A DNA stretch of 43,815 nt from Candidatus Neomarinimicrobiota bacterium (GTDB taxonomy: Bacteria > Fidelibacterota > Marinisomatia > Marinisomatales > S15-B10), in contig JAZGBI010000031.1 of assembly GCA_036476315.1 (NCBI GenBank), positions 1 to 43,815 on the forward strand. Reading direction: 5' to 3'. The position numbers were made by a program, and so were the translations under genes. Positions 18,677-43,815 of this stretch are shown piece by piece. Within the stretch, counting starts at the first letter, position 1; every line of letters begins with the position of its first letter. Under the pieces are notes generated by a model. The model had not been told where the DNA came from. It did no database searches and saw nothing but the letters and a program-made list of their open reading frames with translations.

Positions 18677-19080
18677 GACACCTTTCAGATACTCTCGCTT
18701 TGTCCGAGATTTTCCTGGAACCTTCTGAATGAAACGACACCCGGGTCAAATTTTCGAACCAATTCTCTTTGTTCCAACTGGGAATTGCAACGACCTTTTC
18801 AAGGTCAACGACCGGCAATAAAGCACCAAATGACGGAGAAATGTCAAATCACAAAATCCAAGCACCAAATTCCAAATCTGCCGCTGATGATGTTCATATA
18901 AAAAAAGACCCTTTGAAAATTGCAGTTCGTGATTTGAGATTTCTTTGTTATTTGGGATTTGAAATTTGGAATTTGTTTGTTATTTGGAATCTGTGATTTT
19001 GTCTTATGCAAGTGTATCGCAAAAGCCATACAATGACATTGTCAAGTAAAGGCGAATTAGTGATACAAGTCATCAGCAGG
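18677..19080. other. Intergenic region upstream of transaldolase, repeat-bearing
   Basis: This gap between two minus-strand genes holds the probable promoter of transaldolase (near 18680-18800) and a repeat element at 18845-19001 described separately. ORFs that can be drawn through the repeat have low-complexity Ile/Asn/Phe/Trp content and are not considered genes. Confidence 0.5.
18845..19001. repeat. Imperfect inverted repeat with internal direct repeats
   Basis: The left arm at 18845-18877 (starting CAAATCACAAAATCCAAGC) is the imperfect reverse complement of the right arm at 18964-19001 (ending GGAATCTGTGATTTTG). Inside the right half the 18-mers at 18944-18961 and 18976-18993, both beginning TTTGTTATTTGG, are 16/18 identical. 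This type of ATTTGGAATTTG-rich element recurs in intergenic DNA of many environmental bacteria; whether it is mobile or a structured RNA is unknown. Confidence 0.6.
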
Positions 19081-40395: not shown

Positions 40396-40986
40396 ATGTT
40401 TAGATGGTTGAGAAGACTGTACGATTGGGTGCTCCATTGGGCGGAAACTCCATACGCCGTTCCCGCGTTGATTATTCTTGCCGTGGCGGAATCATCGTTC
40501 TTCCCGGTCCCCGCGGACGTGTTGTTGATTGCGCTGGCGGTGTCGATTCCCAGGCGGTCATTTGAATACGCCGCGTACACCTCCCTCTTCTCTGTTCTTG
40601 GTGGGGTAGGGGGGTACGTTATAGGCCTGAAGTTCATGGCATTGGTGGGTTCGCCGATTATTGAGTTGTATGGCTACCAGGCCCAGTTTGAATCATTGAG
40701 CGGAATCTTCCACCGGTACAATTTCATCGCCGTTTTGACGGCAGCGATGACGCCTATTCCCTATAAGGTTTTCACCATCACAGCGGGTGCCGTGGAAGCA
40801 GATTTCGTGGAATTCGTCGTGGCATCGGCCGTTGGGCGCTCTCTTAGATTCTTTGCAGTAGGGGCATTGATCTACTTCCTTGGTGAGCGTGTCAAAGAAT
40901 TCATCGAAAAGTATTTCAACATCTTGGCTGTCGCCTTCGCCACCCTTCTCCTGGGCGGGTTTGTCGTGGTGAAATTGGTCTTTTGA
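40396..40986 (+). CDS. YqaA/DedA-family membrane protein
   Basis: A 196-residue inner-membrane protein of the SNARE-associated/VTT (DedA-like) superfamily, YqaA branch. Hydrophobic segments at about residues 20-45, 55-85, 112-135, 140-165 and 172-195. Family signatures: AESSFFPVPADVLLIALA (the re-entrant E-x(n)-P-x-P loop near residue 32) and an FTAGAVEAD-like FTITAGAVEADFVEFVVASAVGRSLRF. DedA-type proteins are now linked to lipid scrambling or undecaprenyl-phosphate recycling; for the YqaA branch this remains inference. The ATG has only a weak AAGGGTAAC upstream. It is the last protein gene before the repeat/tRNA region. Confidence 0.88.
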   Translation: MFRWLRRLYDWVLHWAETPYAVPALIILAVAESSFFPVPADVLLIALAVSIPRRSFEYAAYTSLFSVLGGVGGYVIGLKFMALVGSPIIELYGYQAQFESLSGIFHRYNFIAVLTAAMTPIPYKVFTITAGAVEADFVEFVVASAVGRSLRFFAVGALIYFLGERVKEFIEKYFNILAVAFATLLLGGFVVVKLVF

Positions 40987-41032: not shown

Positions 41033-41153
41033 AGGAGAATTGGAGTAATGGAGTATTGGAGAGATGCACTATTGGAGTGGTAGAGAGTGGAGTGATTTCT
41101 AACAACTTGGTTATTCAATTCTCCAATTCTCCATTTTTGCATTACTCCATTTT
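41033..41153. repeat. Repeat unit 1: 8-bp tandem repeats in inverted arms
   Basis: The left arm (41033-41094) is built from degenerate 8-bp units of the form GGAGTATT (GGAGAATT, GGAGTAAT, GGAGTATT, GGAGAGAT...). The right arm (41119-41153) consists of the reverse complement (ATTCTCCA, ATTCTCCA, ...ATTACTCC), so the unit can fold into a long imperfect hairpin. The centre contains TAACAACTTGGTTATTCAAT, shared almost unchanged with units 3 and 4. Confidence 0.75.
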
Positions 41154-41157
41154 AAAG

Positions 41158-41218
41158 CGGGGTGTAGCGTCCCGACGGGTCGGGAAGGTCCCCGGTTCAA
41201 CTCCAGGCACCTGGACCA
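41158..41218 (+). pseudogene. Degenerate chimeric tRNA-like fragment, D-arm missing
   Basis: A 61-nt fragment. Bases 41158-41169 equal the first 12 nt of the intact tRNA-Pro. Next comes the hairpin TCCCGACGGGTCGGGA (41170-41185), then a T-arm-like segment (CCCGG-TTCAACT-CCAGG, one mismatch) and an acceptor-like end with encoded CCA (41216-41218) that differs from the tRNA-Pro 3' half. Five of seven acceptor pairs plus one wobble can form, but there is no D-arm and no 7-nt anticodon loop, so it is not a functional tRNA by normal rules. Confidence 0.6.
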
Positions 41219-41227
41219 TAATGAGTC

Positions 41228-41335
41228 ATTGGAGGATGTGAGTAGTGGAGTGCTGGAGAATTGGAAAACCGGAGCCAGGTATGCGCATTGGATTACTCGA
41301 TTCTCCAAATTTCCATTCCTCCATTGCTCCAGTTT
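41228..41335. repeat. Repeat unit 2: diverged inverted-repeat unit
   Basis: The same architecture as unit 1, with GGAG-rich 8-bp units on the left (41230-41264) and CTCC-rich units on the right (41299-41331), but a different centre that includes AGCCAGGTATGCGC. It lies immediately upstream of the intact tRNA-Pro. Confidence 0.65.
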
Positions 41336-41339
41336 TCAT

Positions 41340-41414
41340 CGGGGTGTAGCGCAGCCTGGTTAGCGCGCGTCGTTCGGGACGACGAGGTCGGGAGTTCGAA
41401 TCTCCCCACCCCGA
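41340..41414 (+). tRNA. tRNA-Pro, anticodon CGG
   Basis: A complete cloverleaf: acceptor CGGGGTG/CACCCCG (41340-41346 with 41407-41413, perfect), D-stem GCGC/GCGC (41349-41352 with 41363-41366), anticodon stem CGTCG/CGACG (41368-41372 with 41380-41384), loop TTCGGGA with anticodon CGG at 41375-41377, variable loop AGGTC, T-stem GGGAG/CTCCC around TTCGAAT, and discriminator A41414. The following CGG shows that CCA is not encoded and must be added post-transcriptionally. It is embedded in the repeat array rather than in an ordinary intergenic region. Confidence 0.95.
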
Positions 41415-41429
41415 CGGTCATAGATTTGT

Positions 41430-41582
41430 TGGAGTATTGGAGGGTTGGAGAGATGGAGTATTGGAGAACTGGGGTAGTGGAGTAATGGAGTATTGGAGTA
41501 TTGGAGTGGTGGAGAGCGGAGTGACTTCTAACAACTTGGTTATTCAATTCTCCATTTCTCCATTTTCGCATTACTCTACTTC
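41430..41582. repeat. Repeat unit 3: 8-bp tandem repeats in inverted arms
   Basis: The longest run of regular 8-bp units: GGAGTAAT, GGAGTATT, GGAGTATT, GGAGTGGT in succession (about 41480-41511), then the conserved centre with TAACAACTTGGTTATTCAAT and a CTCC-rich right arm. With the preceding tRNA 3' part (41385-41414) it forms the first copy of a direct repeat of about 200 bp. Confidence 0.8.
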
Positions 41583-41593
41583 CTATCAGGATT

Positions 41594-41646
41594 TGGCGCG
41601 TCCCGACGGGTCGGGAAGGTCGGGAGTTCGAATCTCCCCACCCCGA
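41594..41646 (+). pseudogene. Truncated tRNA-Pro 3' copy with altered anticodon arm
   Basis: Bases 41617-41646 are identical to the tRNA-Pro variable loop, T-arm and acceptor 3' strand (41385-41414). The anticodon arm is replaced by the palindrome TCCCGACGGGTCGGGA (41601-41616), which is also in the fragment at 41158. The 5' acceptor strand and D-arm are missing, so it cannot form a tRNA. Identity continues into the 3' flank (CGGTCATAGATTTG). Confidence 0.75.
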
Positions 41647-41660
41647 CGGTCATAGATTTG

Positions 41661-41838
41661 CTGGAGTATTGGAGGGTTAGAGAGATGGAGTATTGGAGAA
41701 CTGGGGTAATGGAGTATTGGAGTGGTGGAGAGCGGAGTGACTTCTAACAACTTGGTTATTCAATCCTCCAATTCTCCATTTTCGCATTACTCCATTACTA
41801 CCTCCAAATCTCCATCTTCACATTTCTCCACTTTCAAT
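41661..41838. repeat. Repeat unit 4: second copy of the direct repeat
   Basis: Nearly identical to unit 3 through the centre (a few substitutions) but two 8-bp units (16 bp) shorter in the left arm, the pattern expected from slippage. The CTCC-rich right arm continues further (to 41830). It ends just before the leuS leader. Confidence 0.8.
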
Positions 41839-41883
41839 GGGATATAACCGAGCCCTTTAGCACGTTTCACGCCCGAAACGATC
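41839..41883 (+). promoter_or_regulatory. leuS leader with start-proximal hairpin, tRNA-5'-half-like
   Basis: The hairpin CGTTTC-ACGCCC-GAAACG (41863-41880, perfect 6-bp stem) ends 3 nt before the leuS ATG, and no Shine-Dalgarno is visible. The stretch from 41838 shows partial identity to the 5' half of the neighbouring tRNA-Pro (GGG-T-TA-C--AGCC...TAGC-CG). The hairpin falls at about the position of the anticodon arm. It could hinder or regulate initiation, or simply be degenerate tRNA debris. Confidence 0.4.
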
Positions 41884-43815
41884 ATGTCAAGATACGATCA
41901 TAAGTCCATTGAAAAGAAATGGCAGGATTACTGGGAGAAAAACGGACTGTTCAATGCGGCTGAAGATCCAGGTAAGAAGAAGTACTATGTACTTGACATG
42001 TTTCCCTACCCATCGGCGGCAGGTCTTCATGTGGGCCATCCTCTCGGATATATAGCCACTGATATTGTTGCCAGACATAAAAGAATGTGCGGGCTCAACG
42101 TGCTCCACCCTATGGGATGGGATGCCTTCGGTCTGCCGGCCGAACAGTATGCCCTCCAGACGGGAACCCATCCATCGTCAACGACGGCAAAGAATATCGC
42201 CAACTTTCGAAGACAGATCAAGATGTTGGGCTTGTCATACGACTGGGACAGGGAAATCAATACGACGGATCCAGGATACTACAAATGGACCCAGTGGATT
42301 TTCCTTCAGCTTTTCAAGAAGGGACTCGCCTACGAGGCGAGGGTTCCAGTGAACTGGTGTCCCCAACTGGGTACCGTTCTTGCAAACGAGGAGGTGATTG
42401 ACGGCAAATCGGAACGAGGTGGGTACCCCGTCTACCGAGTTCCCATGCGCCAATGGATGCTGAAGATCACAAAGTACGCAGAAAGTCTACTCGAGGGACT
42501 GGATCAATTGGATTGGCCGGACAGCGTAAAAGAGCTTCAACGGAATTGGATAGGACGTGCCGAGGGAGATGATGTAGTTTTTGAACTTCCAAGCATAAGT
42601 GACTCTCTTATTGTATTTACCACCCGACCGGATACCTTGTTTGGAGCCACATACATGGTGCTAGCGCCGGAGCACCCGATGGTAGGGAAACTTACGGTTG
42701 GTCAGAGAGAAAAGGCCGTGGATGCGTATCTGAAGTCATCTGCCCGGAAATCAGAGAGAGTGAGGACCGATCTGGCGGAGGAGAAAACGGGAGTCTTCCT
42801 CGGGTCACATGCAATCAATCCGGTGAATGGAGCCCGAGTACCCGTGTGGATTTCGGACTACGTCCTCATGACATACGGAACGGGGGCGATCATGGCCGTT
42901 CCCGCGCACGACCAGAGGGACTGGGAATTCGCCAGGAAGTATCATCTTCCCATTGTTGAAGTGGTAAAGGGAGGCGACATCAGGAAGGAGGCGTACGAGG
43001 ATATTGAGGGGGGAAAGGTGGTCAATTCCACTACCCCTGACGGCTCCTTCAGCATTGACGGACTTTCCGTGGAGGAGGCAAAGAAGAAAATCATCGGCTG
43101 GTTGGAGAAGACCGGGAAAGGGAAGTACCGGATCAACTACAAACTTAGAGACTGGCTTTTTTCCAGGCAGCGATACTGGGGGGAACCTTTTCCCATTGTT
43201 CATGTTGGGGGTGAGGCGCGAGGTATCCCCGAAGGGGACTTACCCGTGGAGCTGCCGGCTCTCGAGAACTATGAGCCGTCTGGCACGGGGGAGTCGCCCC
43301 TGGCATCATCAGAGGAGTGGGTCAATATTACCGTTGACGGAGAACCGGGTGTACGAGAAACCAATACCATGCCCCAGTGGGCAGGGTCAAGCTGGTACTA
43401 CCTCAGGTATCTCGATCCTCACAACCGTGAGAAGGGGTGGGATCCAGAGAAGGAGCAATACTGGATGCCCGTTGATTTGTACGTGGGCGGACAGGAGCAT
43501 GCCGTTTTACATCTGCTCTACGCACGATTCTGGCATCATGTCCTGCATGATCTGGGATATGTATCCACGAGTGAACCTTTCAAGAAACTTTTCAACCAGG
43601 GAATGATTCTCGGTGAAGATGGCCAAAAAATGAGCAAATCCAGGAACAACGTGATCAATCCGGACGAGATTGTGAATGAGTATGGGGCCGACTCGATGAG
43701 GCTTTTTGAAATGTTCATGGGGCCCCTGGAGAAATCAAAACCGTGGAGCACCTCGGGTCTTCAGGGCTGCTACCGTTTTCTGAACCGCCTCTGGAAAATG
43801 TTTGTCGACGAAAAG
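41884..43815 (+). CDS. leuS: Leucyl-tRNA synthetase, 3' end cut by the window
   Basis: The first 644 residues of a class Ia aminoacyl-tRNA synthetase charging tRNA-Leu. The HIGH-type motif is HVGH at residues 49-52 ([17 protein letters not shown]); [13 protein letters not shown] follows. The CP1 editing domain is recognisable by [20 protein letters not shown] and [19 protein letters not shown], so post-transfer editing should be intact. The zinc-type insertion ([25 protein letters not shown]) keeps only one of the usual cysteines and probably lacks zinc. [11 protein letters not shown] and the KMSKS loop at 582-586 follow. Roughly 170-220 residues (anticodon-binding and C-terminal domains) lie beyond the window. 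The ATG at 41884 is the only start after an in-frame stop at 41845 and has no Shine-Dalgarno. Confidence 0.97.

Follow-up and report, generated by a model that had tools for sequence, protein, structure and literature searches.

Intervening sequences (IVS) without an open reading frame (ORF) are known. In Coxiella burnetii, the IVS of the 23S rRNA combines inverted repeats and heptamers repeated in tandem with an S23 ORF, and RNase III cuts it out (PMC4990558). The locus described here combines variants of such IVS-like elements with variants of another known kind, the elements that occupy tRNA sites, in the spacers between dedA, tRNA-Pro(CGG) and leuS.

Anatomy of the dedA – tRNA-Pro(CGG) – leuS locus

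The stretch of DNA analysed (the window, 43,815 nucleotides) is a complete contig, C31, of a Candidatus Neomarinimicrobiota genome assembled as 2.6 Mb in 112 contigs. From dedA to leuS the array reads unit A, pseudo-tRNA 1, unit B, intact tRNA-Pro(CGG), unit C, pseudo-tRNA 2 and unit D (Table 1). The arms of the GGAG units consist of (TGGAGNNN)n on one side and (NNNCTCCA)n on the other, and the octamer pattern has 31 matches in the window, all within the tRNA-Pro locus, against 0.14 expected from dinucleotide shuffles. Four inverted-repeat units with octamer arms, as described in an earlier note on this DNA, are thus borne out; so is its intact tRNA-Pro gene starting at 41340, and both of its tRNA fragments are real, the chimeric one at 41158 and the 3′ one at 41594, which is identical in 34 of 34 nt to 41385-41418. 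What that note left unremarked is the palindrome TCCCGACGGGTCGGGA, common to the two fragments. The leuS leader (41838-41883), which it took for a possible further tRNA piece, is not supported as one: it aligns with a score of 8 where shuffles reach 6.5 ± 1.2 (P = 0.17), and 26% of random window segments score equally well; the leader scores better against the pseudo-tRNA of a relative (P = 0.0005), in a comparison chosen post hoc.

Table 1. Features of the locus in window coordinates, followed by the three GIY-YIG/tRNA loci elsewhere in the same genome (contig:position)
Feature	Position	Strand	Remarks
VTT-domain (DedA-like) gene	40396..40986	+	left neighbour of locus, conserved
GGAG inverted-repeat unit A	41033..41157	+	ORF-less IVS-like hairpin; fold z -4.1
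Pseudo-tRNA 1	41158..41218	+	tRNA-Pro first 12 nt, palindrome, AGGTC, T arm/acceptor end (ACCA) of a different tRNA
Palindrome TCCCGACGGGTCGGGA	41170..41185	+	within pseudo-tRNA 1
GGAG inverted-repeat unit B	41226..41339	+	core diverged
Intact tRNA-Pro(CGG)	41340..41415	+	64 bits; anticodon arm 41368-41384
GGAG inverted-repeat unit C	41417..41590	+	fold z -2.4
Pseudo-tRNA 2	about 41590..41650	+	D-arm end, palindrome, tRNA-Pro from nucleotide 44 onward
Palindrome TCCCGACGGGTCGGGA	41601..41616	+	within pseudo-tRNA 2, anticodon-arm place
GGAG inverted-repeat unit D	41649..41837	+	duplicate of C, extra CTCC words at end
leuS	41884..43815	+	right neighbour, conserved, cut by contig end
GIY-YIG/tRNA-Asn (L082)	C12:2950		
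GIY-YIG/tRNA-Ser(TGA) (L087)	C61:24460		
GIY-YIG/tRNA-Ser(CGA) (L094)	C23:478		

Units A and C fold more stably than their shuffles (z scores in Table 1). Units C and D are about 87-92% identical and hence copies of each other, so that A to D do not represent four independent insertions. With such a fragmented assembly an assembly error remains a worry, against which the 8-13% divergence between the copies argues. The insert at the tRNA-Pro locus of the window has no ORF and no integrase or nuclease gene; besides tRNA, Rfam searches of the units (E up to 10) gave chance hairpin matches only, mostly to eukaryotic miRNA models, and the pseudo-tRNAs score below the Rfam tRNA model. In another spacer of the window (18951-19002) there is a different degenerate word array, of the TTTGAAATTTGGAATCTG type.

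Dispersed GGAG units and the word arms of PF05635 genes

Across the genome a triplet of the octamer is found at 26 separate loci (clusters within 1 kb being counted as one locus) and the backward pattern at none. At C79 a copy can be aligned with units A, C and D across arms and core alike, so that the unit, and not the word alone, is dispersed; this core is common only to these four copies. Of the 26 loci, seven have a tRNA or tmRNA gene no more than 300 bp away (Pro-CGG, Arg-CCG, Gly-CCC, Ala-CGC, Leu-CAG, SeC and tmRNA), compared to about 1.2 expected if the noncoding share is near 10% (P about 1e-4). The five ordinary tRNAs among these neighbours are all C34 tRNAs, that is, 5 of 11 C34 tRNAs against 0 of 24 others (Fisher P = 0.0014, for a split noticed post hoc). 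C34 tRNAs are mostly dispensable isoacceptors. A miniature element mobilised by a transposase (MITE) would be expected to have fixed terminal inverted repeats and a target-site duplication; the GGAG arms consist of word runs that vary in length and lack fixed ends, and by eye no target-site duplication is seen at C31 or C79.

Two further word arrays recur in this genome, ACGTTNG at about 12 loci and CTTGATNC at about 23, often in the same spacers as GGAG arrays, and some of them adjoin tRNA-Arg(CCT), tRNA-Leu(CAG), tRNA-Ala(CGC) or tRNA-His.

The earlier note read the locus as a bacterial SINE-like element, in which a tRNA-Pro head and a GGAG body and tail spread as one unit. Two parts of that proposal stand, namely the dispersal, with a further copy of the unit, core included, at C79, and the link to tRNA genes, near which GGAG loci exceed expectation. 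The single spreading unit is another matter: tRNA pieces and GGAG units do alternate in the window, and C and D are duplicated along with the tRNA 3′ end, but the pseudo-tRNA fragment has two copies in the genome, both in the window, GGAG loci near other tRNAs of this genome come with no displaced 3′ copy of those tRNAs, and those pseudo-tRNAs of relatives that were inspected have no GGAG arms. GGAG copies beyond the window yielded no tRNA fragment, and octamer copies elsewhere without tRNA sequence are what the note itself had named as evidence against its reading. Eukaryotic SINEs also have tRNA-derived sequence adjoining a repeat-rich body; here the body has not taken its tRNA part along to other loci, and no sign of retrotransposition was seen, neither a reverse transcriptase nor, by eye, an A-tail or a target-site duplication. 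The observation made in the note is largely right, whilst its SINE reading is not supported and appears to us very improbable.

A different relationship is suggested by C71, where GGAG arms frame a PF05635 (23S_rRNA_IVP) gene. Most other PF05635 genes of this genome lie between other words and their reverse complements (e.g., GTTAGAC, GGATACT, GATTAGTT). We set the left flank of each gene against its reverse-complemented right flank, taking mismatched flank pairs as the null, in a sample of 49 PF05635 genes drawn from this genome, from four relatives and from named genomes spread over several phyla, the contigs being scanned with a single protein as query since the family alignment is too diverse. 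Flank scores of at least 22 were reached by 37 of the 49 genes against 6.8% of mismatched pairs, and scores of at least 30 by 23 of 49 against 1.1%; none of 28 ordinary window genes exceeded 22. Paired arms of one short degenerate word (7-8 bp) are therefore a general property of PF05635 genes, with the word differing from element to element. The Coxiella 23S rRNA IVS agrees with this layout, and the GGAG units of the window are most likely ORF-less, dispersed relatives of PF05635 elements, located outside rRNA. The 23S_rRNA_IVP genes are widespread and unexplained, and inverted arms of a single word in several phyla give a handle on their nature and spread.

One PF05635 protein of this genome has its best named match in Marinimicrobia bacterium TCS56 (55% identity). 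The longest and nearly identical word arms (AGGCACGA, AGCGACGA) belong to Planctomycete PF05635 genes (loci L161, L167 and L171), so that these elements may be the most recently active.

Palindrome-swapped pseudo-tRNAs and GIY-YIG ORFs

The two pseudo-tRNAs both have TCCCGACGGGTCGGGA immediately ahead of AGGTC (tRNA nucleotides 44-48), in place of the 17-nt anticodon arm; a 16-nt palindrome, TCCCGA-N4-TCGGGA, has thus replaced nucleotides 27-43. Pseudo-tRNA 1 has also lost the D arm, and the donor of its T arm, which ends in ACCA, unlike the tRNAs of this genome, was not found among the tRNA loci compared.

A similarity search returned the identical palindrome junction in three genomes of other families, and a pattern search of 245 genomes of the phylum gave a match in 27, against one match for the reversed control. 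About 16 of the pattern matches are plainly tRNA and, together with G010, found by synteny, they bring the swap to nine families. The pattern fixed the palindrome arms and their spacing to the T loop, which in part accounts for the constancy of both among its matches; independent of it are the window, G010 and the cases found by similarity. Mostly the left junction falls where the D stem ends (AGCGCG, AGAGCG), indicating that the anticodon arm was replaced exactly. Twelve swapped loci have an intact tRNA no more than 300 bp away, and in 10 of them it is a C34 tRNA (eight Pro-CGG, one Val-CAC and one Arg-CCG). Where compared, the T arms of the relatives' pseudo-tRNAs match the neighbouring tRNA, so that these pseudo-tRNAs look locally made rather than imported; no exact palindrome-swapped tRNA was found in viral contigs. 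TCCCGA-N4-TCGGGA is also the commonest hairpin of 6-bp stem and 4-nt loop in 257 kb of this genome, with 15 copies, 13 of them outside these pseudo-tRNAs.

Hairpins of the same form are found inside the RNase P RNA genes of two relatives (L179, L180) and inside this genome's own tmRNA gene (L072, about 2763), either as insertions or as native helices.

In four relatives (G021, G012, G032 and G221) a GIY-YIG ORF, assigned by PF01541 in three of them and by similarity in G032, lies between or beside the intact and swapped tRNA copies; in G012 and G032 the array runs intact tRNA, ORF, swapped copy, ORF. Elsewhere, when it is the cargo, this ORF runs from the tRNA 3′ end into the D loop of the displaced copy, where it stops. 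In the genome of the window a GIY-YIG open frame begins inside the 3′ part of tRNA-Asn, tRNA-Ser(TGA) and tRNA-Ser(CGA). Behind the Asn ORF follows a displaced tRNA 3′ part, about 42 of 44 nt identical and broken by a different 16-nt palindrome (TCCGGC-GGCT-GCCGGA), and behind the Ser-CGA ORF an identical 18-nt tRNA 3′ end. A displaced 3′ copy lies downstream of just three of the genome's 36 tRNAs, Asn and Ser-CGA, both with a GIY-YIG ORF, and the window's tRNA-Pro, without one. The window locus therefore has the architecture of a GIY-YIG element, its GGAG units occupying the place that the ORF has in relatives.

On the minus strand of L094 (about 1890-1940) the T loop of the displaced tRNA-Ser holds a second palindromic repeat family (CTCCATAGGAGCTCCTCCGGAG), and related repeats stand between GGAG words at C89, C69, C16 and C20.

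The same locus in relatives takes several forms. In G013 dedA, tRNA-Pro and leuS are present with neither kind of element; G004, of the same family as the genome of the window, has one GGAG unit before a single tRNA-Pro and no pseudo-tRNA; G032 has a pseudo-tRNA between dedA and tRNA-Pro, G021 a pseudo-tRNA and a GIY-YIG ORF in that place, and G010 a pseudo-tRNA with TCTCGACGGGTCGGGA before tRNA-Pro and leuS. At tRNA-Ala(CGC) of G004 another GGAG unit follows the tRNA, and ahead of the tRNA stand two of its 5′ pieces in tandem, joined to TCCCGATGGATCGGGA. The two kinds of element thus occur both apart and together, and since G004 belongs to the same family and is without a pseudo-tRNA, their history is not one of simple descent.

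These comparisons bear on two further readings. GGAG hairpins and pseudo-tRNAs could be functional RNA hairpins, kept because they act when the tRNA-Pro and leuS transcripts are processed or terminated, as their stable folds, their location between tRNA and leuS, and the GGAG unit that in both G000 and G004 separates tRNA-Ala from the conserved stretch that comes next would suggest. However, G013 and G008 have no such units ahead of leuS, arms and cores turn over rapidly, and the poor fit of the pseudo-tRNAs to the tRNA model also speaks against a retained function, which makes this reading quite doubtful. Alternatively, unequal crossing over may have multiplied a single GGAG unit and a single tRNA, decay following and the rest being chance. 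Such local tandem duplication, which agrees with the 87-92% identity of C and D together with the adjoining tRNA 3′ end and with the single unit and single tRNA of G004, covers C and D but not the recurrence of one palindrome at the anticodon-arm place in nine families, and it leaves both the 25 other GGAG loci and the word arms at PF05635 genes unaccounted for. As a complete account we hold it unlikely, if somewhat less so than retained hairpins.

Origin of the locus and comparison with known systems

On balance, we favour an origin in which two unrelated kinds of small element entered the dedA – tRNA-Pro(CGG) – leuS locus and local duplication followed; GGAG hairpins and pseudo-tRNAs alike are probably tiny selfish DNA. 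Read from sequence, both kinds would be mobile. The first would be a homing-type element directed at tRNA genes, which shows itself as an intact tRNA together with a cargo and a displaced copy of that tRNA. On entry a GIY-YIG element may cut the tRNA gene, restore it with a 3′ part of its own and displace the old part, so that displaced copies would originate from nuclease cutting and repair; the displaced part might then tolerate or need the palindrome, which would prevent recutting. Swapped loci with a GIY-YIG ORF number four, a minority, and the palindrome lies mostly outside tRNA (13 of 15 copies), which makes its link with the nuclease an indirect one. The window locus is itself without such an ORF, and architecture is the basis for counting it among these elements. 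The second kind, the GGAG hairpin units, may be mobilised with the help of a PF05635 element and, if their transcribed hairpins are excised by RNase III, by analogy with IVS, would be harmless beside stable RNA genes. The succession of intact tRNA, C, pseudo-tRNA 2 and D resembles a block, made up of the tRNA 3′ part and a GGAG unit, that was duplicated in tandem.

It is tempting to go one step further and imagine a minimal tRNA-directed system, in which the GIY-YIG element restores the tRNA and leaves a palindrome-immune copy, IVS-like hairpins serve as its non-autonomous cargo and, separately, PF05635 arms are built by repeated copying of a short word, different in each element. We offer this as a tentative possibility, and a rather improbable one.

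In the open-access literature searched no paper was found on PF05635 word arms or on palindrome-replaced anticodon arms, and both the arms and the exact swap seem to be undescribed there. The swap in nine families, in some cases tied to GIY-YIG ORFs, points towards a homing system of very small size whose targets would be tRNA genes.

Compared to the IVS of 23S rRNA (PMC4990558), the window units share an inverted-repeat stem, their arms being able to form a long one, and C71 adds a short tandem word by an ORF, with the PF05635 gene between GGAG arms; unlike these IVS, the window units have no S23/23S_rRNA_IVP ORF between their arms and lie in spacers beside tRNA genes, between tRNA-Pro and its neighbours, rather than in a 23S rRNA helix (this genome's own 23S rRNA is assembled only in part). 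With integrative elements at tRNA sites (prophages and ICEs; PMC9897764) the locus shares an intact tRNA and a displaced partial copy across the insert, but the insert measures a few hundred bases with no integrase seen and carries GGAG hairpins or, at comparable sites, a GIY-YIG ORF, and the displaced copy has a palindrome for an anticodon arm. GIY-YIG homing endonuclease elements (PF01541; PMC1564403) similarly place a small ORF on a presumed target gene that is partly duplicated; what is seen here differs from them in that no intron is involved, the window has no such ORF and the putative targets are tRNA genes. Finally, REP sequences and Rickettsia palindromic elements are likewise short palindromes repeated genome-wide, whereas the palindrome described here sits exactly at the anticodon-arm place of tRNAs, and does so in many families.
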